NCBI GenBank assembly: GCA_903825255.1
Contig: CAIJZZ010000030.1
Span: forward strand, 1 to 64,000
Origin: an uncultured bacterium
Lineage (GTDB): Bacteria; Patescibacteriota; Minisyncoccia; Phycocordibacterales; UBA9973
Length of the DNA: 64,000 bases
Direction: 5' to 3'
The notes under the pieces are model-generated. The model had not been told where the DNA came from. It made no database searches and saw only the letters and a program-made list of their open reading frames with translations. Each line of letters starts with the position of its first letter. Within the stretch, counting starts at the first letter, position 1. The translations under genes were made by a program, and so were the position numbers. Below are positions 2,657-45,030 of this stretch, piece by piece.

Positions 2657-4111
2657 ATGATAAAATCAAAGGAAATTTATTTAGATTATGCATCTGCGAC
2701 TCCTATTGAAAGAGAGGTAATTGAAGTTATTCATAAGTCCTTAAAAGAGGATTTTGCGAATCCGAGCGCAATACATAAAAATGGAGTACAAGTAAAAAAT
2801 AAATTAGAAAAAGCTCGAGAGGAAATTGCTGAAATTTTAGGTGTTCATATGGATGAAATTGTTTTTACTTCATCAGCCACTGAATCAAATAATTTAGCGA
2901 TCTTAGGTATCGTAAAAAAGTTCACCGAGCTATTTCTTGAAATGCACACATATTCGCCTGCTGGCGAATTGCTCTGCTCGGCTCGTCAGCCTGCGCAAGG
3001 CATTTCAAAAAATACTCGCCGAACTTTTTTATTACCACATATTGTGACGACAAATATTGAGCATCCAGCCGTGTTAGAAGTTTGTAAATATTTAGAAGAA
3101 ACTAAACTAGCAGAAGTAACTTATGTAGCCGTAGAAAAAAATGGGATTGTAGATCCTAAAAAAATTAAGAATGCTTTAAAAGAAAATACAATTTTAGTTT
3201 CTGTGATGTATGCCAATAATGAAATCGGTACTATTCAGCCGATTATGGAAATTGCCAAAGAGATAAGGCATTACAGAAAAGCAAAGACAGAAAGTTTTTC
3301 GAATGGTCTGGCCGAGTCTGCGAAGCAGACGAAGGAGGACCGAGGACCTGAGAAAAATTTACTGACTTTGCGTTCTTTACCTTTTTTCCACACTGATGCC
3401 ACGCAGGCCATAAATTATTTACCTATTAAGGTGGAAAAGTTAGGAGTTGATTTAATGTCTTTTAATGGTAGTAAAATATATGGACCAAAAGGTACCGGTG
3501 TTTTATTTATAAAAAGAAATATACTGATAAACAGTATTTCATTTGGCGGAGAACAAGAGCTTGGATTAAGGCCTGGGACAGAGAATGTTGCCAATATTTT
3601 GGGCCTAGCGGAAGCATTAAAAATCACTGAAAAAGTTAAAGAAAAAGAAACAGCACGTTTAATTAAACTTCGAGATTATTTTATTAAAGAATTATTTAAT
3701 CTACAAAATCAAAATAAGAAATTTTCTCGGGTCCTCGGTCTGGGGCCAGACCAGCTCGAAAATCTTTATTTTGATTTTGTAATTAATGGTGATTCAAAAA
3801 ATCGTTTACCAAATAATGTAAATATTACAATACCCCAAATACCAAGCGATTTATTATTATTAGAATTATCTGCGCGAGGAATTTATGTTTCAGAAAAAAG
3901 CGCTTGTAAGTCAGGAGATAAAGCTAGTTCTTATGTTATTAATGCTTTAAATGGAAATAAAATTAAAGCTAAAAAAATTTGTACCAAAAAGGATATGGAA
4001 AACAATTCTCTTCGATTTTCTTTAGGTAGAGGGACAACAAAAGCAGATATTGATTATACTCTTAAAGCGCTATCTGAGATTTTGACTAAACTAAAAAAAT
4101 GGTATAATTAG
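2657..4111 (+). CDS. Cysteine desulfurase (IscS/NifS family) with three in-frame palindromic insertions
   Basis: YLDYASATP, SATESNNLAI, HIVTTNIEHPAVLEV, HTDATQA, SFNGSKIYGPKGTGVLF, SACKSGDKASSYV (catalytic Cys loop). Extra segments at about 2914-3030, 3275-3380 and 3703-3780. Confidence 0.93.
   Translation: MIKSKEIYLDYASATPIEREVIEVIHKSLKEDFANPSAIHKNGVQVKNKLEKAREEIAEILGVHMDEIVFTSSATESNNLAILGIVKKFTELFLEMHTYSPAGELLCSARQPAQGISKNTRRTFLLPHIVTTNIEHPAVLEVCKYLEETKLAEVTYVAVEKNGIVDPKKIKNALKENTILVSVMYANNEIGTIQPIMEIAKEIRHYRKAKTESFSNGLAESAKQTKEDRGPEKNLLTLRSLPFFHTDATQAINYLPIKVEKLGVDLMSFNGSKIYGPKGTGVLFIKRNILINSISFGGEQELGLRPGTENVANILGLAEALKITEKVKEKETARLIKLRDYFIKELFNLQNQNKKFSRVLGLGPDQLENLYFDFVINGDSKNRLPNNVNITIPQIPSDLLLLELSARGIYVSEKSACKSGDKASSYVINALNGNKIKAKKICTKKDMENNSLRFSLGRGTTKADIDYTLKALSEILTKLKKWYN
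2914..3030 (+). repeat. Quasi-palindrome A1 inserted in cysteine desulfurase gene
   Basis: Left arm AAAAAAGTTCaccgagcTATTTCTTGAAATGC (2914-2945); right arm GCATTTCAAAAAATActcgccGAACTTTTTT (3000-3030), near-complete inverted complement; internal hairpin TTCGCCtgctGGCGAA (2953-2968). Confidence 0.85.
3275..3380 (+). repeat. Quasi-palindrome A2 in cysteine desulfurase gene, core family A
   Basis: Core GAATGGTCTGGCCGAG-tctgcgaagcaga-cgaaGGAGGACCGAGGACCTGAGAAAA; internal hairpin GTCTGCgaaGCAGAC (3316-3330); outer arms AGAAAAGCAAAGACAGAAAGTTTTTC / GAAAAATTTACTGACTTTGCGTTCT. Confidence 0.85.
3703..3780 (-). repeat. Quasi-palindrome A3 in cysteine desulfurase gene, core family A (inverted orientation)
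   Basis: ACAAAATCAAAATAA (3703-3717) perfectly complements TTATTTTGATTTTGT (3766-3780); centre GGTCTGGggCCAGACC (3738-3753); contains GGTCCTCGGTC, the reverse complement of GACCGAGGACC of A2/A4. Confidence 0.88.
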
Positions 4112-20275: not shown

Positions 20276-21472
20276 ATGATGAAAAAAAGGGTTGTTTTTG
20301 TTGGACTTTCAGGGGGCGTAGATTCCTCAGTATCTGCTGCGCTTTTAAAAGAACAAGGCTATGATGTCGTGGGGGTTTTTATTCGTACTTGGCACCCAGA
20401 TTTTTTGGAATGTAATGAAGAAGAAGAAAGACTTGATGCGATGCGCGTCGCGACGCATTTGAATATTCCATTTCTTACTTTTGATTTCGAAGACGTCTAC
20501 AAAAAAGCAGTGGCTGATTATATGATTACTGAATATAAAGCAGGTCATACGCCCAATCCGGATGTGATGTGTAATAAAGAAGTGAAGTTTGGAGCTTTCC
20601 TCCGAAAAGCACTTTCCATGGGTGCAGATTTTGTGGCAACAGGGCATTATGCTATAAAAAATGAGAAATATACTTTTTTGAATGGTCTGGCCGAGCGTAC
20701 TCGCGAGGAGGACCGAGGACCTGAAAAAAAGAATATTTCTTATTTTTTAAATAAGGGAAAAGATTTAACAAAAGACCAAGCTTATTTTCTCTGGACTTTA
20801 AAGCAAGAACAACTTTCTAAAATTATTTTTCCAGTTGGTCATTTAGAAAAAATGGAAGTTCGAAAATTAGCCAAAAAATTTAAATTACCTGTGGCCGAAA
20901 AGAAAGATAGTCAAGGTATTTGTTTTTTGGGTGCGGTAGATTTAAAAGATTTTTTAAAACATTATATCCAAGAAAAAAAAGGTGAAGTTAGAAATGAAAA
21001 TGAAGAAATTATAGGTTATCATGATGGCGCAGTTTTCCATACCTTAGGAGAACGTCACGGCTTTACGATTACTAAAAAAAGTCCGACAGATGGAGCTTAT
21101 TATATAATTGCGAAGGACATAGAGAAAAATATTTTATATGTGTCTCAAGACAAAAACTATCTTAAAAAGAGCACGGATATTTTTTTACTAAAAAATTCCT
21201 CGTGCTCGCGCCAGTCGCGTTTCCAAGTCTCTTTTCAAAATAATTTTTGTCTTTCGTTAAAAGAGGTAAATTGGATTTCACAAGTTCCTAAAGAAAATAA
21301 AAAATATACTGCCCAAATTCGTTATCATGGGGAATTTTTAAAGTGCCAAATAAGAAATTTTAAACCAGATTCTGTTCAGGTAATTTTTGAAAAACAAATT
21401 CTCGTCGATTCCGGTCAATCCTGTGTTTTATATGATAAAGATATTTGCTTAGGTGGAGGAGTAATAATCTAG
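20276..21472 (+). CDS. mnmA: tRNA-specific 2-thiouridylase MnmA with palindromic insertions
   Basis: VGLSGGVDSSVSAALL, NPDVMCNKEVKFGAF, ATGHYA, KDQAYFLWTL, KKDSQGICFLG, HDGAVFHTLGERHG; extra segments at 20656-20748 and 21147-21253. Confidence 0.95.
   Translation: MMKKRVVFVGLSGGVDSSVSAALLKEQGYDVVGVFIRTWHPDFLECNEEEERLDAMRVATHLNIPFLTFDFEDVYKKAVADYMITEYKAGHTPNPDVMCNKEVKFGAFLRKALSMGADFVATGHYAIKNEKYTFLNGLAERTREEDRGPEKKNISYFLNKGKDLTKDQAYFLWTLKQEQLSKIIFPVGHLEKMEVRKLAKKFKLPVAEKKDSQGICFLGAVDLKDFLKHYIQEKKGEVRNENEEIIGYHDGAVFHTLGERHGFTITKKSPTDGAYYIIAKDIEKNILYVSQDKNYLKKSTDIFLLKNSSCSRQSRFQVSFQNNFCLSLKEVNWISQVPKENKKYTAQIRYHGEFLKCQIRNFKPDSVQVIFEKQILVDSGQSCVLYDKDICLGGGVII
20656..20748 (+). repeat. Quasi-palindrome A4 in mnmA, core family A
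   Basis: AAAAAATGAGAAATATACTTTTTT (20656-20679) vs AAAAAAAGAATATTTCTTATTTTTT (about 20724-20748), 2-3 mismatches; core GAATGGTCTGGCCGAG-cgtactcgcga-GGAGGACCGAGGACCTGA shared with A2. Confidence 0.92.
21147..21253 (+). repeat. Quasi-palindrome A5 in mnmA
   Basis: GACAAAAACTATCTTAAAAAGAG (21149-21171) vs reverse complement of CTCTTTTCAAAATAATTTTTGTC (21229-21251), 20 of 23 identical; inner GAGCACG (21169-21175)/CGTGCTC (21201-21207). Confidence 0.85.
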
Positions 21473-30421: not shown

Positions 30422-31036
30422 ATGAAAGATGAAGATTTAAAAAATAAAGAAGAAAGTGAAATTGAAGTTAAACCAATAGATATTCCAGAGGAGGATGATG
30501 TTGTTGAATTTGAGTTTAACGATGATGGGGAGGAAGATTTAAAGAAAACTCTTAAGAAATTAAGAGCTGATTTAAAAATATATAAGAAAGAAAAGGAAGA
30601 ATATTTGACTGGTTGGCAGAAAGAGCGAGCGGATTTTATTAATTATAAAAAAGGAGAAGATGATCGCAAGGCTAATTTTTCAGAAGCGATGCGTGAAAGA
30701 ATACTTATGCGTTTTTTGACCGTTTCTGATAGCTTTAATATGGCTTTTGCTAATAAAGAAGCTTGGGAAAAAGTAGATGAAAATTGGCGCAAAGGAGTGG
30801 AATATATTTATTCTCAAATGAATGTTATTTTTGAAGAATTTGGATTGAAGCCAGTAGGAGAAATCGGAGAAGCTTTTGATCCATCTCTTCATCAATCAAT
30901 TGAAATGGTTGTCACCGATAAAAAAGAAGATGATCATAAGATTGCAGAAGTAGTCTTACGAGGTTACAAATTAACTGACCGGGTCATTCGAGCTGCGCGG
31001 GTAAACGTGTATGAATATAAAGAATCCGGAAAATAG
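30422..31036 (+). CDS. grpE: Nucleotide exchange factor GrpE
   Basis: GWQKERADFINYKKGEDDRK... EEFGLKPVGEIGEAFDPSLHQSIEMV... VLRGYKLTDRVIRAARVNVYE. Confidence 0.92.
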   Translation: MKDEDLKNKEESEIEVKPIDIPEEDDVVEFEFNDDGEEDLKKTLKKLRADLKIYKKEKEEYLTGWQKERADFINYKKGEDDRKANFSEAMRERILMRFLTVSDSFNMAFANKEAWEKVDENWRKGVEYIYSQMNVIFEEFGLKPVGEIGEAFDPSLHQSIEMVVTDKKEDDHKIAEVVLRGYKLTDRVIRAARVNVYEYKESGK

Positions 31037-32690
31037 AAATTGTCAGAATTGTCGCAAAAATTTCACTATTGAAATAGAGGATTTTAACTTTTATGAAAAG
31101 ATAAAAGTACCGGCACCGACGTGGTGTCCGGAATGTCGTCAGCAAAGACGTTATGCTTGGCGCAATGAGCGCACTTTGTACAGGCGTGATTGTGATCTAT
31201 GTGGTAAAAGTACCGTTACAATTTATTCACCAAATAAAGATTTAATAGTATATTGTTTGAAGTGTTGGTGGGGTGACGGATGGGATGCAAGTTTTTATGG
31301 ACGAGATTTCGATTTCTCTCGAACATTTTTTGAACAATATAAAGAATTACAATCAAAAGTTCCGAGAATGGCTTTACTTTCAAAAAACAGTATAAATTCA
31401 GATTATACAAATCACTCAGGAGATAATAAAAATACTTATTTATCTTTTTGTTGTTTTGATACAGAAGACGTTTTTTATTCAACCTGGGTAATGAAATCCA
31501 GAAACTCAATGGAATGCAGTTATATTTATGATAGTGGTGAAAGACTTTATCAGTGCATTGATTCACGAAAAGTTTATCATTGTCAGTATAGTTTTTTATT
31601 AGAAAATTGTGTTGACAGTCTATATTGTTATGATTGTCACAATTGTAATAATTGTTTTATGTCTTCAAATTTGCGTAATAAAAGTTATGTTTTTAAAAAT
31701 GAACAATATTCACGCGAAGGTTATTTAGAAAAAATTAAAGAATACGATCTTGGATCCTATGAGACTCGTGAAAAATTGAGATTAGAATTTTTAGATTTAA
31801 TGCTTCAGAATTCTATTCATCGTTATGCCATAATGGAACGCAATATAAATTCTATTGGTAATCAACTATACAATAGTAAAAATTCAAAATATTGTTTTGA
31901 TGCTGAGGTGCTTGAAGATACAAAATACCTTTACGCTTCACTGCAATTGAAGAATTCAATGGATCTTTATCATATCGGCTGGAATACTGAGCTCGCTTAT
32001 GAAATTCATGGCAGTCGAGGGCTTTATAATTCTCAATTTTGTCATCTTTGCTATGACAATCAAGAATTACAATATTGCGATTCGTGTCAAAATTGTAAGA
32101 GTCTTTTTGGCTGTATTTCCGTGAAGAAAGGTAATTATATGATTTTAAATAAAAAATATGAGAAAGTTGAATATGAAGCATTAAAAGGTAAAATTATCGA
32201 ACATATGAAAAGCACCGGAGAATATGGAGAATTTTTTCCTCCTTCCATTGCACCGGTGTGTTATAACGAAACACAGGGTAATTATTATATGCCTGAAACT
32301 AGAGAAACAATTTTGGCTCGTGGCTGGACTTGGGAAGATCAAGTTTTGGGAACATATGGTAAAGAGACGATTAAAACAGAAGATATTCCAGATGATATAA
32401 AAAATATCACAGATGATTTTATTTTTAATATTTTAAAATGCGAAGATTGTAATAAAAATTTTAATATTATTCCTAATGAATTAAATTTTTATCGTCGCGA
32501 AGAAGTTCCGATACCACATAAATGCCCTGAATGTCGTTATAAGATGCGTTTCGCTATTCGTTTACCTCGTCGTCTTTGGCATCGAAAATGCATGAATGAA
32601 GGCTGTCAAAATGAATTTGAAACTCCATATGCACCAGAAAGAAAAGAAATGGTTTTTTGTGAGTCGTGTTATAACAAAAAGATTTATTAA
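31011..32690 (+). CDS. Large multi-zinc-ribbon protein, paralog 1
   Basis: N-term NCQNCRKNFTIEIEDFNFYEKIKVPAPTWCPECRQQRRYAWRNERTLYRRDCDLCGKS; C-term CEDCNKNFNIIPNELNFYRREEVPIPHKCPECRYKMRFAIRLPRRLWHRKCM...NEFETPYAPERKEMVFCESCYNKKIY. Start overlaps grpE by 26 nt. Confidence 0.85.
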   Translation: MNIKNPENRNCQNCRKNFTIEIEDFNFYEKIKVPAPTWCPECRQQRRYAWRNERTLYRRDCDLCGKSTVTIYSPNKDLIVYCLKCWWGDGWDASFYGRDFDFSRTFFEQYKELQSKVPRMALLSKNSINSDYTNHSGDNKNTYLSFCCFDTEDVFYSTWVMKSRNSMECSYIYDSGERLYQCIDSRKVYHCQYSFLLENCVDSLYCYDCHNCNNCFMSSNLRNKSYVFKNEQYSREGYLEKIKEYDLGSYETREKLRLEFLDLMLQNSIHRYAIMERNINSIGNQLYNSKNSKYCFDAEVLEDTKYLYASLQLKNSMDLYHIGWNTELAYEIHGSRGLYNSQFCHLCYDNQELQYCDSCQNCKSLFGCISVKKGNYMILNKKYEKVEYEALKGKIIEHMKSTGEYGEFFPPSIAPVCYNETQGNYYMPETRETILARGWTWEDQVLGTYGKETIKTEDIPDDIKNITDDFIFNILKCEDCNKNFNIIPNELNFYRREEVPIPHKCPECRYKMRFAIRLPRRLWHRKCMNEGCQNEFETPYAPERKEMVFCESCYNKKIY

Positions 32691-32697
32691 AATTGAA

Positions 32698-34365
32698 ATG
32701 GAAAATAAAAGTGAAAACAAAATATGTCAAAACTGTCACACGGAATTCATAATTGAACCAGACGATTTCAATTTTTATGAAAAAATGCAGGTGCCAGCAC
32801 CCGAAAAATGTCCAGATTGTAGACAGCAATTGCGAATGCTTTATCGGAATTTTAAAACTCTTTACAGAAGACCTTCTAGCCTATCTGGGAAAATGATTAT
32901 TTCTATGTATGATTCTGATGTGTTATTTCCTGTTTATGATGTTGCCGAATGGTGGAGTGATGATTGGGAAGGGTTGTCCTATGGACAGGAAATTGATTGG
33001 GATAAGACGATTTTTGAGCAATTAGATTCCTTATTTAATATAGTTCCTCATATATGTGTAATGAACACTAAGAGTGAAAATTGTGAGTATTCAAATATGG
33101 TAATTTCTAGTAGAAATTGTTATTTAAATTTTGGCTGTGTGGAAAATGAAAATTGTGATTATGGACATATTGTTTGGAATTCCAGAGATTCTATAGACAA
33201 TCTTTATATATATAAATCTGAAGCTTGTTATGAATGTATTGATTGTATAAATTGTAATAACCTTCTCTTTTCTCAAGAATGCGAAAGTTGTGCTGAGAGT
33301 ATTGGCCTTTTTGACTGCAAGGGTTGTGTGAATTGTATTGGTTGTGTTGGTCTTATAAATAAGTCTTACTATATTTTTAATAAGCCAGCGAATAAACAAG
33401 AATATGATTCATATTTGAAATACAATCCGATCAGTGATAATAAAAATATTATTAAGATTTTAGAAGAAAGAGAAAAACTACGCAAAGAAATTCCCCAAAG
33501 ATCCTTTTTTGGTTTTAGAAATAATAATGTTTCAGGTAATCATATATATAATGCTAGAAATGTTCACTATTCTTTTGATGTTAAAGGAGGAGAAAATTCT
33601 AAATTTTGTTTTACTACAAGAAAAGCCTTGGATAGTTATGATGCTTCTTTCAATCCTGATATTTCTGAATGCTATCAAATATTAAATTGTACTGGAAGCA
33701 ATAAAGTGTTATTTTCGCAAGGGGTGATTGATTCCCACGATGCACATTATTCTGACTTTTGTTACAATTGTGACAATATTTTTGGTTGTTGTGGGCTTCG
33801 CAAAAAATCTCATTGCATATTTAATAAGCAGTATTCAAAAGAAGAATATAAAGATATTTTATCTAAGATAATAAAAAAAATGAAAGAAGATAATGAATGG
33901 GGTCTTTTTCTTTCTGAAAAATTAAAAGTCTTTACTTATAATGAATCAATTGCAAATGAATATATGCCACTTAGTAAAGAAGAGGCATTAAATAAGGGTT
34001 TTGGCTGGAAAGATACTATACCAAGTACTAGTGGTCAAGAAACTATTAATTTTGAGAAATTACCAAAAGATCCTAAAGAGTATGATGAAAATTTATTAAA
34101 AGAAGTTTTTGCTTGTGATGAATGTCATAAAAATTATCGCTTGATAAGCAGGGAAATAGCTTTTTACAAAAGACAACATTTATCATTACCCCAAAAGTGT
34201 TTTAATTGTCGGCATGAAAATAGAATGAAATTACGAAACCCTAGGACTTTATTTGATGCAATATGTACAAAGTGTGGCAAAGATATAAAAACTTCTTATG
34301 ATCAAAATAAACAAAAAATTTATAAAATTTATTGCGAGGAATGTTATAACAAAGAAGTATATTAA
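32698..34365 (+). CDS. Large multi-zinc-ribbon protein, paralog 2
   Basis: Start at ATG 32698 (MENKSENKICQNCHTEFIIEPDDFNFYEKMQVPAPEKCPDCRQQLRMLYRN); C-term YCEECYNKEVY. ORF track start 32596 overlaps paralog 1. Confidence 0.85.
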   Translation: MENKSENKICQNCHTEFIIEPDDFNFYEKMQVPAPEKCPDCRQQLRMLYRNFKTLYRRPSSLSGKMIISMYDSDVLFPVYDVAEWWSDDWEGLSYGQEIDWDKTIFEQLDSLFNIVPHICVMNTKSENCEYSNMVISSRNCYLNFGCVENENCDYGHIVWNSRDSIDNLYIYKSEACYECIDCINCNNLLFSQECESCAESIGLFDCKGCVNCIGCVGLINKSYYIFNKPANKQEYDSYLKYNPISDNKNIIKILEEREKLRKEIPQRSFFGFRNNNVSGNHIYNARNVHYSFDVKGGENSKFCFTTRKALDSYDASFNPDISECYQILNCTGSNKVLFSQGVIDSHDAHYSDFCYNCDNIFGCCGLRKKSHCIFNKQYSKEEYKDILSKIIKKMKEDNEWGLFLSEKLKVFTYNESIANEYMPLSKEEALNKGFGWKDTIPSTSGQETINFEKLPKDPKEYDENLLKEVFACDECHKNYRLISREIAFYKRQHLSLPQKCFNCRHENRMKLRNPRTLFDAICTKCGKDIKTSYDQNKQKIYKIYCEECYNKEVY

Positions 34366-34368
34366 TTT

Positions 34369-36069
34369 ATGAAATCAGAAGTTAAACAATGCCAAAACTG
34401 CAAAAACGACTTTATTATTGAGCCAGATGATTTTTCTTTTTATGAAAAAATGAGAGTGTCAACACCGACGTTTTGCCCAGAATGCAGATTTATCCGACGA
34501 CTTTGTTGGCGTAATGAAAGATCATTATATAAACGCATATGTGATTTATGTAAAAAAAATATTATTTCAATGTATGACAAAGATGTCACTTTTCCGGTTT
34601 ATTGTCCGGATTGTTGGCGTAGTGATGCTTGGAATCCCATGGAATATGGAAAAGAATATGATTTTTTAAAATCATTTTTTGATCAATTTAAAGAATTATT
34701 TTATAAAGTTCCACGTATTTCTGTTTGGTCACTTAGAAATAATATAAATGTTGAATATGCCAATTTTGTTTATAATTCGAAAAATATTTACCTATCTTAT
34801 TCAATAATTGATGATTCAGAAGATATCTTTTTTTCAAGTAACCTTGATGATTCAAAATCAATGATTGATGTATATAATGCATCAAAAAGTGAATTTGTTT
34901 ACGAATCTATAGGATCTGTAAAAAACTATAATTGCAAATATACATATTGGTCATCAAGTTGTGTTGATTGTAGTTTTATCCTTGATTGCATAAATTGCTC
35001 GGATTGTTTTGCTTGTGTAAATTTAAGAAATCAAAAATATTGTATTTGGAATGTGGAATATTCGAAAGAAGAATATTTAAATAAAATTAAAAAAATTAAT
35101 ATAGGAAGCTATGAATCACTTCAAAAAAACATACGTGAGTTTTGGGATTTTTCTTTAAAATTTCCTAGAAAATATACTCGAATATTAAATAGTCATAATT
35201 CTAGTGGTGATGAACTTCGTGATTGTAAAAATGTTAATTATTCATTTAATTGTTTTAATTCAGAAAATGCAAAATATGGATATAGATCTCCTAGTATAAA
35301 AGATGCTATGGATATAAACCATTTTCATAATGCTGAATTAGCTTATGAACATTCGACTGGAGGCTCATTCAATAGTTCTAATATTAAATTTATTATTAAT
35401 GGTGGAGATGCAACAAATGGATTAGAATATAGTGATTTTTGTCATTCTTCAAATAATCTCTTTGCGTGTATTGGTATAAAGTCAAAAAATTATTGTATTT
35501 TTAATAAGCAATATGGAAAAGCAGAATATTTTGAAATAGTAGAAAAAATTAAGAAGCAGATGAATAAAATGCCTTACATAGATAAAAAAGGTAATGAATA
35601 TAAATATGGAGAATTTTTTCCTTCTGAGCTTTCACCCTTTGGTTATAATGAAACGGTTGCTAATGATCATTTTCCATTAGAAAAGGAAAAAATTTTAGAA
35701 GGAGGTTATAATTGGAAAAATAAAGAAGAAAACAAATATAAAATTACGAAAAAAGCAAAAGAATTACCAGACGATATAAAAGATGTTGACGATTCAATTT
35801 TAAATGAAGTGATAGAATGTGCTCAATCAAAAAAGGCTTTTAAAATAACACCCTTTGAACTTCAGTTTTATCGTAGAATGAATATTCCGATTCCTAGACT
35901 TCATCAAGACGAAAGATACAAAAAAAGGCTTACCTTGAGAAATCCAATGAAACTCTGGCATCGAAAGTGTATGCATAAAGATTGTGTGAATGAATTTGAA
36001 ACTCCTTATGCGCCAGAACGGCAGGAGATAATTTATTGCGAACGTTGTTATCAGCAAGAAGTTTATTAA
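34369..36069 (+). CDS. Large multi-zinc-ribbon protein, paralog 3
   Basis: KQCQNCKNDFIIEPDDFSFYEKMRVSTPTFCPECRFIRRLCWRNERSLYKRICDLC; C-term NEFETPYAPERQEIIYCERCYQQEVY. Confidence 0.85.
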   Translation: MKSEVKQCQNCKNDFIIEPDDFSFYEKMRVSTPTFCPECRFIRRLCWRNERSLYKRICDLCKKNIISMYDKDVTFPVYCPDCWRSDAWNPMEYGKEYDFLKSFFDQFKELFYKVPRISVWSLRNNINVEYANFVYNSKNIYLSYSIIDDSEDIFFSSNLDDSKSMIDVYNASKSEFVYESIGSVKNYNCKYTYWSSSCVDCSFILDCINCSDCFACVNLRNQKYCIWNVEYSKEEYLNKIKKINIGSYESLQKNIREFWDFSLKFPRKYTRILNSHNSSGDELRDCKNVNYSFNCFNSENAKYGYRSPSIKDAMDINHFHNAELAYEHSTGGSFNSSNIKFIINGGDATNGLEYSDFCHSSNNLFACIGIKSKNYCIFNKQYGKAEYFEIVEKIKKQMNKMPYIDKKGNEYKYGEFFPSELSPFGYNETVANDHFPLEKEKILEGGYNWKNKEENKYKITKKAKELPDDIKDVDDSILNEVIECAQSKKAFKITPFELQFYRRMNIPIPRLHQDERYKKRLTLRNPMKLWHRKCMHKDCVNEFETPYAPERQEIIYCERCYQQEVY

Positions 36070-36132
36070 TTATTATTTTTTGAATTTGTGTGGTATAATA
36101 TAGACGAGACATAGAAGTCTCGCTTTGTTTTT

Positions 36133-37908
36133 ATGGAAAAAGATTATTCAAATTTACATCGAGGCTTAGTCCTCAAATATTTCTGGCAAGTTATTAAACA
36201 ATATAAATTGTCCTTTTTTATTGTAATTATTTTTACTACCATTGCTTCAATTTTAGATGTATATATTCCACTCAAATATCTAAAACTCTGGAATGTTTTG
36301 AATGCGAATAATTTTGATCTAGTCAATACTGCTCGATCAATTGTTCTTTTGATTTTATTACTTAATTTCGTTAGATTTTTTGTTCGTAGAGTTTCAGGAT
36401 TTTATCTTTCATACTTTGAAGCTTCGACTATGGCCGGTCTTCGTAAACAAGCCTTTGCTTATATGATTGGTCATTCACATTCCTTTTTTGCAAACAATTT
36501 TAGTGGTTCGCTAGTAAGAAAAATAAATAAATATGCCAATGCTTTTGAAAAATTGGCGGATCGGATGATAATTGATGGATTACCATTACTCATTCAAGGT
36601 GTAGGTACTGTCGTAGCCATATATTTTTTGCTTCCAAAATACTCTTATATAATGATGGCATTTTTAGCAGTTACGTTATTCACGATTCTGATTGCTACAA
36701 AATATAAATTAAAATATGATGTTTTGTCAGCTGAGGCAGATACGAGGACCACTGGTGCTCTAGCGGATTCTATTGGTAACCATTCTTCTATTCAACTTTT
36801 TACTGGTGGTGAATATGAAAATAAAATAGTTGGTGAAACGATTGAAAAACAAAAGCGTGCTACATTTATTAATTGGTCCTTATGGGAAGGATTGAATACT
36901 GTTGTGAGTTTTTACATGCTCATTGTTGAATTTGTCATTTTTTGGATAGCAGTGGGGGATTGGAGACTAGGCCTTATAGGTTTGCCAGTAATGGTATTAT
37001 TACAAAGTTATCTAATACGCCTAGTAGGTAATTTATTCAATTTTGGCGGAATTATTCGCGCTTACTATGAAAGTTTTGCTGATGCTCAAGAAATGGCTGT
37101 GGTTATGGACACTCCGTATGAAATTTTAGATAAGCCAACTACAGAAATAAATAAAGTAAAAGGTGAAGTAATCTTTGAGGATGTTACTTATATTTATAAA
37201 AATAATAATATTAAAGTATTAGATAATTTTTTTGTCACAGTGCCAGCTGGACAAAAGATTGCTATCGTCGGTTCTTCTGGTGCAGGGAAGACCACTTTTG
37301 TTCGCTTACTTATGAGGATATTTAATTTAAATTCTGGAAGAATTTTGATTGATGGAATAAATATTAATGATATTACTCAAAAAAATCTTCGTGAACAAAT
37401 AGCTTTTGTTCCACAGGATCCAATACTTTTCCATCGTACTTTAATGGAAAATATTCGTTACGGTAGGCGAGATGCTACTGATGAAGAAGTTCTAAAAGCT
37501 GCGCATCTAGCACATTGTGATGCCTTCATAGATAGTTTACCACAAGGTTATGATACATATGTCGGTGAGCGTGGAGTGAAACTCTCTGGTGGAGAACGTC
37601 AGCGTGTCGCTATTGCTCGAGCTATTTTAAAAGATGCTCCGATTTTAGTCTTAGACGAAGCGACTTCTTCACTTGACTCTCATTCTGAATTTTTAATTCA
37701 AGATGCCTTACATAATCTTATTCAAGGTAAAACTACGATTGTTATTGCACATAGACTTTCTACTATTAGAGAAATGGATAGAATTATTGTTTTGGAAAAA
37801 GGAAAAATAATTGAAGACGGAACGCATGAAAAATTATCTAAAAAGAGAAATGGTTTATATAAAAAACTATGGGATTTACAAGCGGGAGGATTTAAAAATG
37901 AAATTTAG
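36133..37908 (+). CDS. ABC transporter, fused TM and ATPase (exporter type)
   Basis: Six-TM domain; GSSGAGKTTFVRLLMR, LSGGERQRVAIARAILKDAPILVLDEATSSLDSHSE. Confidence 0.95.
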   Translation: MEKDYSNLHRGLVLKYFWQVIKQYKLSFFIVIIFTTIASILDVYIPLKYLKLWNVLNANNFDLVNTARSIVLLILLLNFVRFFVRRVSGFYLSYFEASTMAGLRKQAFAYMIGHSHSFFANNFSGSLVRKINKYANAFEKLADRMIIDGLPLLIQGVGTVVAIYFLLPKYSYIMMAFLAVTLFTILIATKYKLKYDVLSAEADTRTTGALADSIGNHSSIQLFTGGEYENKIVGETIEKQKRATFINWSLWEGLNTVVSFYMLIVEFVIFWIAVGDWRLGLIGLPVMVLLQSYLIRLVGNLFNFGGIIRAYYESFADAQEMAVVMDTPYEILDKPTTEINKVKGEVIFEDVTYIYKNNNIKVLDNFFVTVPAGQKIAIVGSSGAGKTTFVRLLMRIFNLNSGRILIDGININDITQKNLREQIAFVPQDPILFHRTLMENIRYGRRDATDEEVLKAAHLAHCDAFIDSLPQGYDTYVGERGVKLSGGERQRVAIARAILKDAPILVLDEATSSLDSHSEFLIQDALHNLIQGKTTIVIAHRLSTIREMDRIIVLEKGKIIEDGTHEKLSKKRNGLYKKLWDLQAGGFKNEI

Positions 37909-37911
37909 AAA

Positions 37912-38466
37912 TTATTTTTTGAGACTTTCTAAAAATGCGAGATTAGTTTCTGGATCGAGTTTGTCAGTGACGATGATCATGAGCTCTGTTCCAAGACCTA
38001 AATCTTTTTTAATATTTGTGAAAAGGTGTTCATATGGAAGTGGGGAGATCCAAACAGTATTTTTTACGCAGACGAAGTTCGCTTTTTTTAATAAATAACG
38101 GATCGCTTCACGTTCACTTTTGCGTTCCTCTGGAATATCAATAATAATAATTCGCCAAAAGCCGTCCCAAGTATTCGGCACGAGGGCTTCACCACCCTCA
38201 AGCTGTATTGTATTTAATTTCTTTTTTCCTTCTTTAGTGAGGCGCGCATAATCGTTTTGGCCAGATGAAAGCTGTTCAATGAGCCCTGCTTCTCGAAGTC
38301 CTTTTAAAGAGCGGGTAAGGGCGTAGGAAGCGTTTTTAGAGCAATCTTGGGTGTTCACCTTATTATTCAGTTCTGATAGGGAAATGGCTGGTTTTTCGGC
38401 TAAAAGCTTCAAAATAGCCTTTTGAATATTGGGGTTTTTTTTGTTTGGGATATCCTTCTTATTCAT
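37912..38466 (-). CDS. PaaX-like regulator with winged helix and Cas2-like C-terminal domain
   Basis: WDGFWRIIIIDIPEERKSEREAIRYLLKKANFVCVKNTVWISPLPYE is the PaaX/Cas2-like pattern; N-terminal HTH. Confidence 0.65.
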   Translation of the reverse strand: MNKKDIPNKKNPNIQKAILKLLAEKPAISLSELNNKVNTQDCSKNASYALTRSLKGLREAGLIEQLSSGQNDYARLTKEGKKKLNTIQLEGGEALVPNTWDGFWRIIIIDIPEERKSEREAIRYLLKKANFVCVKNTVWISPLPYEHLFTNIKKDLGLGTELMIIVTDKLDPETNLAFLESLKK

Positions 38467-38528
38467 ATACTTGACATTGTATCATATATAAATATAATAT
38501 CAACAAGTATTTTGCGGTCACGAAATAC

Positions 38529-38939
38529 TTGTCAAAAATAATGAAGAGGTATATAATAGAAAACATTATGCAAGAAGGTGTCCCTAAAAATGAAGATAAG
38601 AAAATAAATTCAGTTAAAAGCATTGATCATCTCTTAAATGATTTTTCAAATGAAATTCCAGAAAAAATGGCCCGTGAACTTATTGAAGGCGGGTCTAATT
38701 TTGGCAGTGAATATTATAAGTTAAAAGTAAGGATAAATTGGTTTCATGGAGTTTTAAGTACATTGGAAAGTGCATATTATAAAGGATTTTTACCTGAAGA
38801 TTTTTGGAAAGAAATTACTGATTTTATAAAGAAATTTAAAGAAAGTCATATAAAAACTTCTGATAGAACAACAAAAGAAGAAATTGAGAAAGCAGATGAT
38901 TTATTAAGAAGGGCTAAAGAGTTTATTGAAAAAAAATAA
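38529..38939 (+). CDS. Hypothetical helical protein
   Basis: ORF upstream of dnaK; no family recognised. Confidence 0.5.
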   Translation: MSKIMKRYIIENIMQEGVPKNEDKKINSVKSIDHLLNDFSNEIPEKMARELIEGGSNFGSEYYKLKVRINWFHGVLSTLESAYYKGFLPEDFWKEITDFIKKFKESHIKTSDRTTKEEIEKADDLLRRAKEFIEKK

Positions 38940-39012
38940 TTACAAACCCCGAAAGTCGAAGTCGGGAAATAAATAAAAAACAAAACATTATAAGTTTAAT
39001 AAATAAAAAAAT

Positions 39013-40929
39013 ATGTCAAAAATAATAGGTATAGACTTAGGAACAACAAATTCGGCCGTGGCTATCATTGAAGGTGGCGCCCCGAAAATAGTCGAAAATG
39101 TGGAAGGCAATCGCACGACGCCTTCTGTGGTAGCGACAGCCAAGAATGGTGATCGTATTGCCGGTCTTTTAGCGAAGCGTCAAGCAGTGACAAATCCAGA
39201 AAATACAATTTCTGAGATTAAACGTTATATGGGTCATAGATTTGATGATCCAGGTGTACAAAAAGATAAAACTTCAGCTCCATTTAAAATTGAAGCTAGT
39301 GAAGATGGTGGTGTGAAGGTAAAAATGTCTGATAAATTTTATCGTCCAGAAGAAATTTCTGCGATGATTTTACAGAAAATAAAAACAGATGTGGAAACTA
39401 AATTAGGTGAGAAAATTACTGAAGCTGTTATTACTGTGCCAGCTTATTTTAATGATGCGCAAAGAAAAGCTACCAAAGATGCAGGTCTTATCGCTGGGCT
39501 TGATGTAAAACGCATTATTAACGAACCGACAGCCGCAGCTCTTGCTTACGGATTCGATAAAAAGAAAAATGAAAAAATAGTAGTATATGATTTCGGTGGC
39601 GGAACCTTTGATGTATCTGTACTTGAAATCGGAGATGATGTCATAGAAGTGAAGTCTACTGATGGTGATAGTCATATGGGTGGAGGTGATATTGATCGTA
39701 AGATGATTGCTTGGATTGCGGAAGAATATAAAAAGGAATCTGGTATGGACGTACGTAAAGATCCACTCGCTCATCAAAGATTAAAAGAAGCAGCCGAAAA
39801 AGCTAAACACGAACTTTCTACCACTATGGAAACAGAAATTAATATTCCATTTATTACTTCTGATGCTTCAGGTCCAAAACATTTGTTAATGAAAATGTCT
39901 CGAGCTACTTTGGAATCTCTTGCAAAAGAATATATTGATCACTCTATTGAAATTACTAAGAGGGCACTCGAAGCCTCACCATTTAAGATGAATGAAATTA
40001 ATGAAATCATTATGGTGGGCGGACAGACTCGAATGCCGGCAATCGTAGAAGCTGTGAAAAATCTTTTTGGTAAAGCTCCAAATATGACGATTAATCCTGA
40101 TGAAGTGGTTGCCTTAGGCGCAGCTGTGCAAGCTGGAGTCTTAGCTGGAGATGTACGAGATGTTTTGCTTTTAGATGTTATACCGCTTTCGCTTGGTATT
40201 GAAACCTTGGGAGGAGTAGCCACAAAATTAATTGAACGCAATACCACTATTCCATCTTCTAAATCTCAAATCTTTTCTACGGCTGCGGACAATCAAACTT
40301 CTGTAGAAATTCACATTGTGCAAGGAGAACGCCCAATGGCTACTGACAATAAGAGTCTCGGTAGATTTATTTTAGATGGCGTACCGCCAGCTCCAAGAGG
40401 CATTCCTCAAGTGGAAGTGACTTTTGATGTAGATGCGAATGGAATTTTAAATGTAAAGGCGCTAGAAAAAGCATCTGGTAAAGTGCAATCAATAAAGATT
40501 GAGGCAAGTTCTGGACTCAAAGATGAAGACATTAAGAAAATGCAACAAGATGCAGAAGTGCATGCAGAAGAAGATAAAAAGAAAAGGGAAGTTGCGGATG
40601 TTAAAAATACTGCTGAAATGATTATTTACACTGCAGAAAAAGCTTTGAAAGATAATGAAGCAAAAATCGGAGCGGAATTAAAAGATGAAGTGAATAAAAA
40701 AATCACTACGCTTCGTACTGTAAAAGATGGTACTGATGCGGAGGCGATTAAAAAAGCAACTGAAGAGCTTTCAGCTGAAATGTCTAAGATAGGCGAAGCG
40801 ATGAATAAAGCTAATGCCGAAGCCGGACAAACTCCACCAAACCCAGGAACTGGAACGGAAGAGCAAGGTCCAGAAATTCATAATGCTGAATTCAAAGAAG
40901 GTGATAAACCTGAAGATGAAAAGAAATAA
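39013..40929 (+). CDS. dnaK: Chaperone DnaK (Hsp70)
   Basis: [76 protein letters not shown]. Confidence 0.98.
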
Positions 40930-40950
40930 TAATTACTAATCTTTAAAATT

Positions 40951-40978
40951 AAAAAGCCCTAAAAGGGCTTTTTAATTT
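40951..40978 (+). terminator. Rho-independent terminator
   Basis: AAAAAGCCCTaaaAGGGCTTTTTAATTTT after dnaK. Confidence 0.88.
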
Positions 40979-41006
40979 TATTATCCAATGTTATAATTTA
41001 AACTAT

Positions 41007-43256
41007 ATGGATTTACCCCAAATACCTTTAAACAAAGATTTGACTTACATCGGACTCACGACTTTTCGTGATAAAAATACTCTTTTCGGTATCAAGCGCA
41101 AAGATAGGCGTCAGCACGTATATTTACTTGGAAAGTCAGGTACTGGTAAATCAGTGTTGATGTTTAATATGGTTATTCAAAATATTATCAACGGTGAAGG
41201 TGTTTGCGTAGTTGATCCTCATGGAGAATTAGTCGAGGGAATTTTATCGGCTATACCACCAAATCGTTTGAAGGATGTAGTATATTTTAATCCAGCTGAT
41301 ATTGATTATCATATTGGTTTTAATGTTTTGGAATTAATTGATCCACAATATAAACATTTGGTCGCCTCAGGACTCATGGGTATTTTTACGAAAATTTGGG
41401 CGAATGCTTGGAGTGCTCGTATGGAATACATTTTAAACAATGCGATTTTGGCATTACTAGATACTCCTGGAACAACCTTGCTTGGAATTCCTCGAATGCT
41501 CGTGGACAAAGATTATCGTCAGAAAATAATTTCAAATTTAAAAGATCCAGTGATCAAGGCTTTTTGGGTGCATGAATATGAAGCTTGGCAAGATAAGTTT
41601 CGTAATGAAGCCATCGCCCCGATTCAAAATAAAGTCGGACAATTTCTTTCAACTTCCATTATTCGAAATGTTGTTGGTCAGTCAAAAAGTACGATAGATA
41701 TTTTTGAAATTATGAACAGTGGAAAAATTTTTCTTGTAAACGTTTCAAAAGGGCGTATTGGTGAAGACAACTCTGCATTACTCGGAGGGATGATCATCAC
41801 CAAAATTCAATTAGCAGCGATGGAACGTGTACGTATTCCTGAAGATGACCGTAAAGATTTTTATTTATATGTCGACGAATTCCAAAATTTCGTAACAGAA
41901 TCTTTTGCTGGTATTTTATCTGAAGCTCGAAAATATCGTTTGAATCTTACAGTGGCGCACCAGTACACAGCCCAACTCGTTTCAGACAAAAGTTCAGCTG
42001 TGCGAGATGCAGTTTTTGGCAACGTCGGGACGATGATTGTTTTTCGAGTCGGCTCAGATGACGCAGAATTTTTAGAAAAAGAATTTGATCCAGAATTCAC
42101 TCCATCGGACATTGTGAATTTACCAAACTATAAAATTTATCTAAAACTAATGATTGATGGGGTTACTTCAAGACCATTTTCTGCAAAGACGTTACCGCAG
42201 ATGGTAAAATCAGGTAATATAGAAATCGAGCAAGAAGTTATTAAATCATCCCGTGCCCTTTATTGTAGATCCAGAGAAGATGTTGAACGTGAAATCAATA
42301 ATTGGAGCGGAATGTCGCTTGGAGATGATATTACTAGTGCTGGTGATGTCGAAATGTTTGCGGCAATTTGTTCTATTTGTCATAAAGAGACAAAGGTGCC
42401 ATTTAAACCACAACCAGATAGACCAGTGTATTGTAAAGATTGTATTGCTAAAATGAAGACAGGAGAGTTGAAACCTCTTCGAGGCTCAATGAATCAAATT
42501 AAAGAAGATGAAATTAAATTTTTTAAACCATTAGCAGATTTGGGTATTGAATTTGAACCAAAAGAGAAACACACTGAGTCTGAAAGATATCCAGAAAGAA
42601 CAAATGAAAATAAGCCGATTATGAGTAGTAATAAACCAAAAATTTTTGGAGCTCTTAAAAAAGTTTTTACCCCGTCACTCGCGAGCAACAGGGTTACACC
42701 ATCATCTGCAAACAATACAGCTAATAAAAATATTCCACCTATAAATCCACAGCCGATAAATAGGCCGAATCCTGTTTATGTAAAAAATGATTTTAAAAAT
42801 CAAAATCAAAAATCAACTTTTGTAAATAAGGAAAAAACTAGAGACAACTCAGCCTTGCGAGATATTTTAAATAAGACTCTTTCTGAAAATAAAGTTTTTG
42901 AAGTCAAAAAGGAAGAACCAAAAATGGAAGAAATTAAAAAAGAGACTCCTCCACCGATCTCCTTGAGCGATTTAAAAGTTCAAAAACCAGCTAATATTTC
43001 AAATTTAAAGGATCGAGGAGCAAGTGTTGAAGATATGAGTAAATTAAAGAATTTAATTTCAGAAACAAAAATTCCTATACCTGAACCTACTAAAGAAACT
43101 CCTGTTTTTGTTCCTGAGCCCATAAAAGAAATTCCAAAAGAAGAACCTAAAGAAGAAATAAAAAAAGAAGAAAAATCTGTTCCCATTCCTTCAGTTTCAC
43201 CGTCTGGAAAGGTACGCGAAGTACCAGAAGATGTTTTAAGAAAAATTTTAGAATAA
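41007..43256 (+). CDS. TraG/VirD4-like conjugation-type ATPase with long Pro/Lys-rich C-terminal tail
   Basis: HVYLLGKSGTGKSVLMFNMVIQNIINGEGVCVVDPHGELVEGIL; LYVDEFQNFVTESFAGILSEARKYRLNLTVAHQYTAQL; CxxC...CxxC ribbon (CSICHKETKVPFKPQPDRPVYCKDC). Confidence 0.85.
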   Translation: MDLPQIPLNKDLTYIGLTTFRDKNTLFGIKRKDRRQHVYLLGKSGTGKSVLMFNMVIQNIINGEGVCVVDPHGELVEGILSAIPPNRLKDVVYFNPADIDYHIGFNVLELIDPQYKHLVASGLMGIFTKIWANAWSARMEYILNNAILALLDTPGTTLLGIPRMLVDKDYRQKIISNLKDPVIKAFWVHEYEAWQDKFRNEAIAPIQNKVGQFLSTSIIRNVVGQSKSTIDIFEIMNSGKIFLVNVSKGRIGEDNSALLGGMIITKIQLAAMERVRIPEDDRKDFYLYVDEFQNFVTESFAGILSEARKYRLNLTVAHQYTAQLVSDKSSAVRDAVFGNVGTMIVFRVGSDDAEFLEKEFDPEFTPSDIVNLPNYKIYLKLMIDGVTSRPFSAKTLPQMVKSGNIEIEQEVIKSSRALYCRSREDVEREINNWSGMSLGDDITSAGDVEMFAAICSICHKETKVPFKPQPDRPVYCKDCIAKMKTGELKPLRGSMNQIKEDEIKFFKPLADLGIEFEPKEKHTESERYPERTNENKPIMSSNKPKIFGALKKVFTPSLASNRVTPSSANNTANKNIPPINPQPINRPNPVYVKNDFKNQNQKSTFVNKEKTRDNSALRDILNKTLSENKVFEVKKEEPKMEEIKKETPPPISLSDLKVQKPANISNLKDRGASVEDMSKLKNLISETKIPIPEPTKETPVFVPEPIKEIPKEEPKEEIKKEEKSVPIPSVSPSGKVREVPEDVLRKILE
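42669..42695. repeat. Palindromic core family B inside ATPase gene
   Basis: ACCCCGTCACTCGCGAGCAACAGGGTT, read as TPSLASNRVT. Confidence 0.75.
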
Positions 43257-43272
43257 CTCTATTTAAAGATTT

Positions 43273-45030
43273 ATGACAGAAAAAACAGAAACTCGGGTTT
43301 GCCAAAACTGTAAACAAAACTTCACTATAGAGTCTGAGGATTTTAGTTTTTATAATAAAATCGGAGTACCAGCACCACTTTGGTGCCCTCGTTGTAGATT
43401 TTTACGAAAACTCACTTATTTAAATGACCGTTGTCTTTATAAAAGCAATTGTTCAAATTGTAAAGAAAATATTATTTCCAGATATCATCCAGATTCCAAT
43501 GTACCAGCTTGGTGTATGAAATGTCATATTAGTGACACTTGGGATGGTAGAGATTATGGTAGAGAATATGATTTTTCTAAAAATTTTTTTGAACAATTCA
43601 ATGAGTTAAGAAGTGTTGTGCCTCAACGGGCACTTGATAAAAATGAAAGAAACGGCCCAGGTTGTGAATATTCGAATTACTGTTTTACTAGTAAAAATAT
43701 TTATTTATCATATTGTGTGCATAAATCAGAAAATATTAAATACTGCAAACATACTTATTTGGATACTAAAAATTGTCTTGATTGTTTAAGGGTTAAAAAA
43801 AGTGATCGTTGTTATGAAATAGTCCAATCTAGTGATAGTTTCAGTTCTACTTTTTTAATTGAGAGCGAACAATGTATTTCATCACATTTTTTATTTGATT
43901 GTGTAAATTGTATTGATTGTTGTATGTCATCGGGACTTCGAAATAAAAGTAACGTTTTTCGAAATAAACAATATTCTAAAGAAGAATATCAAAAAGCGAT
44001 TTCTGAGTTACGACTCGATACTTATTCAGGTCAAAAAATAGCCAAAGAAGAATTCGAAGAGCTGGCTCGAAATTCTATTCACCGATTTGCTCATATAAAA
44101 AATTCTATAAATTGTGCAGGTGATTTTATTGCGAATTCAAAGAATTGTGTTCATTGTTATGGTATAGAAACTGCAGAAAATTTGAAAAATTGCTTTCTTT
44201 CTATGGCACCCAATGTTCAAGATTCTCAAGATCTTATAATGACAGGAAGAGGAGAGGAGTGTTATGAAAGTACAAATGCAGGCCGAGGTATGAGCCGAGT
44301 ACTTTTATCATTTAGCTGTGGTAGTGGTTGTAGAAATATACTCTATAGTGATGGTTGTCGAGGTTGTATAGATTGTTTTGGCTGCATTAGTTTAATAAAT
44401 CAAAAGTATTGTATTTTAAATAAACAATATTCTAAAGAGGAATATTTTAAAACAGTTGAGGAAATAAAAAAACAAATGAACGAAGTACCCTATGTTGATA
44501 AAATCGGCAGGGTATATGGTTTTGGTGAATGTTTTCCACCAGAACTTTCTCCTTTTACATATAATGAGAGTTTTGCTTTTGAAGAACATCCTTTATCTCG
44601 CGAAGAAGCCTTGGCTAATGGCTATAAATGGAGAGAAAGGGAATCTAAGGCTTATACGTCTTCTATCCAAGTAAACGATATTCCTGAAAGTATACACGAT
44701 GTTTCTGATTTAATTTGTGATGGAACTATTGAGTGTTTAAATAAAGGAAAAGTGGAGACTCTCTGTACTTCGGCTTTTAAAATATTACCTGATGAACTAG
44801 TTTTTTATAAACAAATGAATTTACCTATACCTAGATATTGTCCAAATTGTAGGTATTATGATCGTATAAAATGGAGAAATCCTTTTAATTTTTATACCAG
44901 AGAATGTATGTGTGGTCTTTTAAATCATAATCATAAAGGGAAATGTTCAAATAAATTTGAGACTATGTATGCGCCGGAAAAGCCAGAAATTATTTATTGC
45001 AAGGAGTGCTATCAGAGAGAAGTGTATTAG
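43273..45030 (+). CDS. Large multi-zinc-ribbon protein, paralog 4
   Basis: RVCQNCKQNFTIESEDFSFYNKIGVPAPLWCPRCRFLRKLTYLNDRCLYKSNCSNCKENI; C-term FETMYAPEKPEIIYCKECYQREVY. Confidence 0.87.
   Translation: MTEKTETRVCQNCKQNFTIESEDFSFYNKIGVPAPLWCPRCRFLRKLTYLNDRCLYKSNCSNCKENIISRYHPDSNVPAWCMKCHISDTWDGRDYGREYDFSKNFFEQFNELRSVVPQRALDKNERNGPGCEYSNYCFTSKNIYLSYCVHKSENIKYCKHTYLDTKNCLDCLRVKKSDRCYEIVQSSDSFSSTFLIESEQCISSHFLFDCVNCIDCCMSSGLRNKSNVFRNKQYSKEEYQKAISELRLDTYSGQKIAKEEFEELARNSIHRFAHIKNSINCAGDFIANSKNCVHCYGIETAENLKNCFLSMAPNVQDSQDLIMTGRGEECYESTNAGRGMSRVLLSFSCGSGCRNILYSDGCRGCIDCFGCISLINQKYCILNKQYSKEEYFKTVEEIKKQMNEVPYVDKIGRVYGFGECFPPELSPFTYNESFAFEEHPLSREEALANGYKWRERESKAYTSSIQVNDIPESIHDVSDLICDGTIECLNKGKVETLCTSAFKILPDELVFYKQMNLPIPRYCPNCRYYDRIKWRNPFNFYTRECMCGLLNHNHKGKCSNKFETMYAPEKPEIIYCKECYQREVY

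Follow-up and report, generated by a model that had tools for sequence, protein, structure and literature searches.

In a genus of CPR bacteria, short palindromic cores are dispersed over unrelated genes and intergenic DNA, and lie in frame as extra loops of conserved proteins; the stem outside each core is copy-specific and near-perfect, and at one site of MnmA (site 2) it spans conserved host codons. We interpret these sequences as mobile palindromic elements resembling those of Rickettsia (RPEs), whose stems would be made and re-perfected from the host flanks by template switching, and assign this interpretation a probability of roughly two in three. The window referred to throughout is the whole stretch analysed, 64,000 nucleotides of contig CAIJZZ010000030.1.

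Palindromic inserts of the window

A sequence-only reading of this DNA had described a near-identical GC-rich core in frame inside two unrelated genes, with a third, inverted copy in the first of them. Both cores are present (3305–3348 and 20684–20721), the hosts are indeed a cysteine desulfurase and MnmA (Pfam agrees on both genes), and the exactly shared parts are GGTCTGGCCGAG (at 3305 and 20684) and GGAGGACCGAGGACC (at 3334 and 20707). The inverted desulfurase copy matches the family covariance model with E 3.9e-7. The interval 3275–3380 corresponds to the entire hairpin of a single copy, that is, the core together with host-matched arms, and two elements of a second family (family B) in the same two genes had been overlooked. 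The window holds five elements in total (three of family A, two of family B), all within these two genes (Table 1).

Table 1. Genes of the window with palindromic inserts, and the inserts themselves.
Feature	Position	Strand	Basis
Cysteine desulfurase gene, 484 aa, three in-frame palindromic inserts	2657..4111	+	ORF; Pfam Aminotran_5
Desulfurase insert 1: family B core 2939–3006 within outer inverted repeat TAAAAAAGTTC / GAACTTTTTTA	2913..3031	+	cmsearch R2 43 bits, E 3.8e-9; hairpin 2931–3014
Desulfurase insert 2: family A hairpin, host-specific arms, encodes FSNGLAESAKQTKEDRGPEKN	3275..3380	+	model match 3293–3359, cmsearch R1 72.4 bits; core 3301–3351
Desulfurase insert 3: short family A core 3719–3764	3702..3781	-	covariance model match
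mnmA gene, 398 aa, two in-frame palindromic inserts	20276..21472	+	ORF; Pfam tRNA_Me_trans; PDB MnmA alignment
MnmA site 1 insert: family A hairpin, 25-bp arms, encodes FLNGLAERTREEDRGPEKKN	20655..20749	+	model match 20672–20732
MnmA site 2 insert: family B hairpin, 25-bp arms	21147..21253	+	model match 21166–21234, E 3.2e-22

Desulfurases of the PDB align to the window protein in three blocks, with breaks at the inserts. Under a strict arm score of at least 13, the open reading frames of the window contain three hairpins, all of them among the five elements (synonymous shuffles give 0–1). Host residues are encoded within the arms: the right arm of desulfurase insert 3 (16 bp, perfect, TACAAAATCAAAATAA / TTATTTTGATTTTGTA) encodes the host FDFV, and in the MnmA site 2 insert the host QDKN is encoded by the left arm, with the right arm as its reverse complement (FCL). 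An Rfam scan of the window returned tRNAs only. Elsewhere in the window, several paralogous proteins of ~560–590 aa (31011–45030) have a CxNC-type segment in common (direct repeats D2–D12).

Core families, hosts and reading frame

The family A core follows the pattern GAATGGTCTGG(CC/TT)GAG-loop-CCGAGGACCTGA and is open in all six frames; the conserved hairpin core spans ~45–60 nt (family B likewise), and full hairpins with arms reach ~80–120 nt. Between the stems of the core, alignment A1 displays invariant GA-containing internal loops (GAAT/TGA, GAG/CCGAG), which look like a protein-recognised or kink-forming motif. The core is repeated across the window's own genome (980 kb, 78 contigs), both in further unrelated genes and between genes: the 12-mer GGTCTGGCCGAG is found 9 times without mismatch and the tail CGAGGACC 28 times (versus 11 for a reversed control), while a covariance model based on 37 copies recovers 20 family A copies (the family B model was built from 12). 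Among relatives, GGTCTGGYYGAG is present in 20 of 60 genomes, and the family A model matches 30 of the 36 same-genus genomes sampled; outside the genus it finds 24 copies in one genome (G039) of another family of the same order, and the remaining 23 genera of that order in the sample gave no match. A search with the exact family A pattern through one genome per GTDB species (264 Gb) returned 23 stretches, each of them labelled as Nomurabacteria, as Patescibacteria/Paceibacterota or as an unnamed bin; these labels suggest a place near Nomurabacteria for the window's genome. Family B ranges more widely through the order, with matches in 17 of 25 genera.

Among 64 family A copies (collected through searches and targeted stretches, with those of MnmA and the desulfurase over-represented, these genes having been deliberately fetched), 53 lie within an open frame of 150 aa or more, and ~48 are intragenic and in frame once ~5 gene-end or pre-start copies are dropped (L005, L008, L056, L079, L155); the remainder sit in the gaps between ORFs, and no case of gene disruption was seen among the 64. 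All six phases are used by the 53 in-frame copies, reverse phase 2 accounting for 26. Hosts identified by NCBIfam include proteins of repair and replication (LigA, UvrA, UvrB, UvrC, PcrA/UvrD, RecJ, PolA) and of tRNA, rRNA and translation (PheS, PheT, LeuS, IleS, CCA transferase, TrmD, Tgt, TruB, KsgA, MnmA), together with an rRNA methyltransferase; intragenic copies are nearly confined to DNA repair/replication and tRNA/translation genes. Ribosome bypass (byps), introns and splicing were discarded as explanations, since every intragenic copy found keeps the frame open across the insert.

Placement at tolerated surface loops, as the sequence-only reading had proposed, is consistent with alignments to solved homologues, which put the inserts in known loops or at the junctions of conserved blocks (the predicted structure of MnmA was poor, pLDDT 41). 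The UvrB insert adds 47 residues exactly between adjacent residues 428 and 429 of its PDB homologue; that of LigA (~34 residues) separates the two Cys pairs of its zinc finger; and MnmA, compared with PDB homologues, is longer by 20 residues at site 1, where the loop has 40 aa instead of 20, and by about 22 at site 2. The UvrB protein (L004) also carries a second lineage-specific insert of ~32 aa (residues 353–384), missing from PDB homologues.

Loop turnover and copy-specific arms

The segments are not ancestral parts of their host proteins. Across 30 same-genus desulfurases and 44 MnmAs the equivalent loops hold other hairpins or none, and clustering of hairpins over all fetched loci gives about ten recurrent types in the genus, plus singletons; in related species, no fewer than ten hairpin types beyond families A and B take up these loops. 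In 12 species desulfurase loop 2 has no large insert and measures 10–14 aa, whereas that of the window gene has 38 aa. At MnmA site 2, 7 empty alleles are 17–20 aa long, those with family B 41–42 aa (41 aa in the window allele) and those with family D 36–37 aa; one further allele (L140) is also of empty-allele length, yet bears a separate small hairpin. At MnmA site 1, three different families occupy one supported sister trio (support 96/95, 99/89), and between the sister genes L137 and L178 a family D insert is intact in one and a half-deleted relic in L137. Recurrent hairpins sit at the same loop in nearly all genus species sampled (mean z −5.8). Vertical inheritance of the site 2 family B insert is not claimed, as its label does not cluster on a poorly resolved MnmA tree. 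That the segments might instead be ancestral protein sequence, chance similarity or an assembly artefact draws some support from the fragmented bin and its 6.3% contamination, but the repeats recur in many independent genomes and unrelated genes and are missing from most orthologues, and we give this explanation practically no credence.

Comparison between copies shows that the core alone is common to them, the outer arms (10–30 bp) being inverted repeats particular to each copy. For family A, arm complementarity averages 16.3 for a copy's own flanks versus 6.5 for flanks taken from different copies, and 68 of 81 copies lie above the 99th percentile of mixed-flank pairs; family B behaves in the same way (self 15.8 versus cross 6.5, with four loci cut off-register and uninformative). 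Since these arms vary from copy to copy and consist at least in part of host sequence, we take the core by itself as the unit that moves. The earlier proposal of an RPE-like CPR palindromic element proliferating into ORFs withstood both of the refutations set for it (segments shared by orthologues as ancestral sequence, and a core not repeated elsewhere in the genome), and is supported with two qualifications: it is the core that moves and not the complete palindrome, and several families are involved.

At MnmA site 2 the conserved host stretch VSQDKN is encoded by the left arm, and where the allele is of family B the right strand tracks the left (FCL with QDKN, FFL with QEKN, FYL with KSRN). 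Over ten such alleles, 12 of 25 pairs are changed on both sides and none on one side only (6.3 in shuffled sets, 1–3 with slid partners); in the close orthologues L137 and L178 (84% MnmA identity) four arm pairs have changed, two of them with full compensation. Arm copying is inferred from distant alleles, since the nearest MnmA to that of the window's genome (G000) is only 73–75% identical. The same bin contains a second mnmA (G000:C49:4428-5624, 73% identity), possibly a product of contamination. The length added beyond the core varies, from ~0–9 nt at MnmA site 2 to 15 nt at site 1 and 22–30 nt in desulfurase loop 2, and for this reason arms that were rewritten and arms that were inserted are not separated here.

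Copy-specific arms would be accounted for directly if cores landed at the tips of pre-existing palindromes, both arms then predating the insertion; the swapping of different families at the same loops and the coreless simple hairpins at some sites (e.g. L105, L132, L143) fit such a scheme. Against it, 59 kb of window ORFs lack any coreless hairpin (loop of at most 12 nt, arm score of at least 11) while the arms of inserted copies score 12–25, and at MnmA site 2 and desulfurase loop 2 the empty alleles mostly show no palindrome, leading us to regard it as unlikely.

The strong covariation of the arms, and the recurrence of hairpins at one loop across nearly all sampled species of the genus, might also be read as selection maintaining a functional RNA for translation control or mRNA stability. 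Under such selection G-U pairs should be tolerated on the sense strand. The mismatches speak otherwise: in 135 hairpins within ORFs, A-C mismatches outnumber G-U by 54 to 23 (p 0.0005 by cells, 0.029 by hairpin), as against 29 G-U and 31 A-C in non-ORF hairpins. Pairing on the mRNA is clearly not favoured in the coding copies, and this shortage of G-U argues against a selected mRNA structure (strand-biased mutation could contribute to the A-C excess). The structure type, moreover, differs completely between sister species, sites may be empty, and the hairpins occur in many unrelated host genes and in either orientation; we therefore consider a functional RNA quite improbable.

An ordinary MITE or RPE with long terminal repeats of its own, the copies of which had diverged into many subfamilies, is the picture suggested by G039, where all 20 family A copies fetched (L217–L236) have the same 25-bp arms (GAATTACGAAATGCAAAAATTTA) and none lies inside a long gene frame; some same-genus family A copies likewise have a ATGCTTTTG arm in common. 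Near-identical cores in the window's genus nevertheless carry unrelated arms, and those at MnmA encode conserved host residues, so that this picture, too, has little probability in our estimation. The constant arms of G039 rather indicate that variable arms are a trait of this genus's copies, and not of the core itself.

Proposed template switching and known palindromic elements

We favour template switching because it fits the copy-specific arms, the two-sided changes and the variable extra length, and is a process already described. A core would insert as a small foldback sequence wherever an extra in-frame loop is tolerated, and could then nucleate a hairpin at the replication fork; by a template switch the nascent strand would copy itself, overwriting or lengthening one host flank with the reverse complement of its partner, and repeated switching would keep the arms matched even as they diverge. 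Were the arms rematched in this way, the palindrome would be a mutational by-product and not a selected RNA structure. Turnover at favoured loops would proceed by replacement and by in-frame deletion, leaving coding scars. The apparent lack of the hairpin nuclease SbcCD may render such palindromes tolerable: SbcD had no match above cut-off in any of 60 relatives, while 13 of 14 control genomes gave a match. Since this absence is order-wide, it is permissive only, and does not explain why this genus is affected.

No insertion enzyme for the cores was found. Y1 transposase genes are present in 41 of 60 relatives (3 matches in the window's own genome, up to 13 per ~0.8 Mb genome in the genus, fewer or absent in others), but a Y1/RAYT transposase is a doubtful candidate for the mobiliser, there being no correspondence with copy number (G007 and G022 have 5–6 copies and no Y1 match). 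A bolder scheme joins insertion and stem formation in one event, in which a core lacking ends would spread through fold-back template switching at the fork with no dedicated transposase, building its terminal repeats from the host DNA that it enters and becoming a major source of new protein loops in CPR bacteria; this we regard as doubtful, if conceivable.

In-frame selfish palindromes were thought specific to Rickettsiales, to judge from the title of Ogata 2002 ("unique but recurrent") as cited in PMC10969869. Our search of openly accessible published papers returned nothing relevant on palindromic or in-frame elements in CPR, Patescibacteria or Nomurabacteria, nor did it find any account of a dispersed core combined with host-matched arms that are continually re-perfected. 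Several families across a CPR lineage with ultra-small genomes imply that the phenomenon is general and extends beyond Rickettsiales. Host-matched, copy-specific arms give direct access to a matter that work on RPEs has left open, namely the way in which such elements insert and persist. They also show how mutation can lead conserved and in many cases essential enzymes to gain and swap surface loops, and represent an annotation trap, in that coordinated multi-residue changes would mimic positive selection or RNA structure.

The closest parallel is with the palindromic elements of Rickettsia and Wolbachia, which are short, form several families and lie both between genes and in frame within conserved genes (PMC2229807, PMC3767692, PMC10969869). 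The CPR elements likewise comprise several families per genome, are multi-copy in both locations, and enter unrelated conserved genes in frame, sometimes with different groups at the same loci; PheT is a host for both, and the CPR hairpins, at ~80–120 nt with arms, have the size and shape of the RPE stem-loop (~100–150 bp). Two differences stand out. No sequence relationship to the rickettsial elements was found, the comparison having been made with the exact family A pattern. Further, RPEs are described as possessing terminal inverted repeats of their own, the identity of which is lost with time (PMC2229807; remark in PMC6649704), whereas the CPR arms are copy-specific, host-matched and near-perfect, and shared element-borne repeats are seen as constant arms in G039 only.

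REPs, which are small and extragenic (PMC3733652), are similar in being short imperfect hairpins in many copies, and the Y1-type genes of REP/RAYT systems are common in the genus; unlike REPs, ~48 of 64 CPR copies are intragenic. Nematomorph mitochondria contain near-perfect coding inverted repeats whose arms encode host protein and which are gained and lost between species, with upkeep proposed to occur by template switch or conversion (PMC6649704); no dispersed conserved core is reported for them, whereas each CPR palindrome has a mobile-like core at its tip. Template switching between the arms of an inverted repeat (quasi-palindrome correction) is known to homogenise arms and can alter several residues of a protein together (PMC8604942, PMC3820800). 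We propose the same process for the CPR arms; described elsewhere as sporadic, it would here recur around a spreading element.
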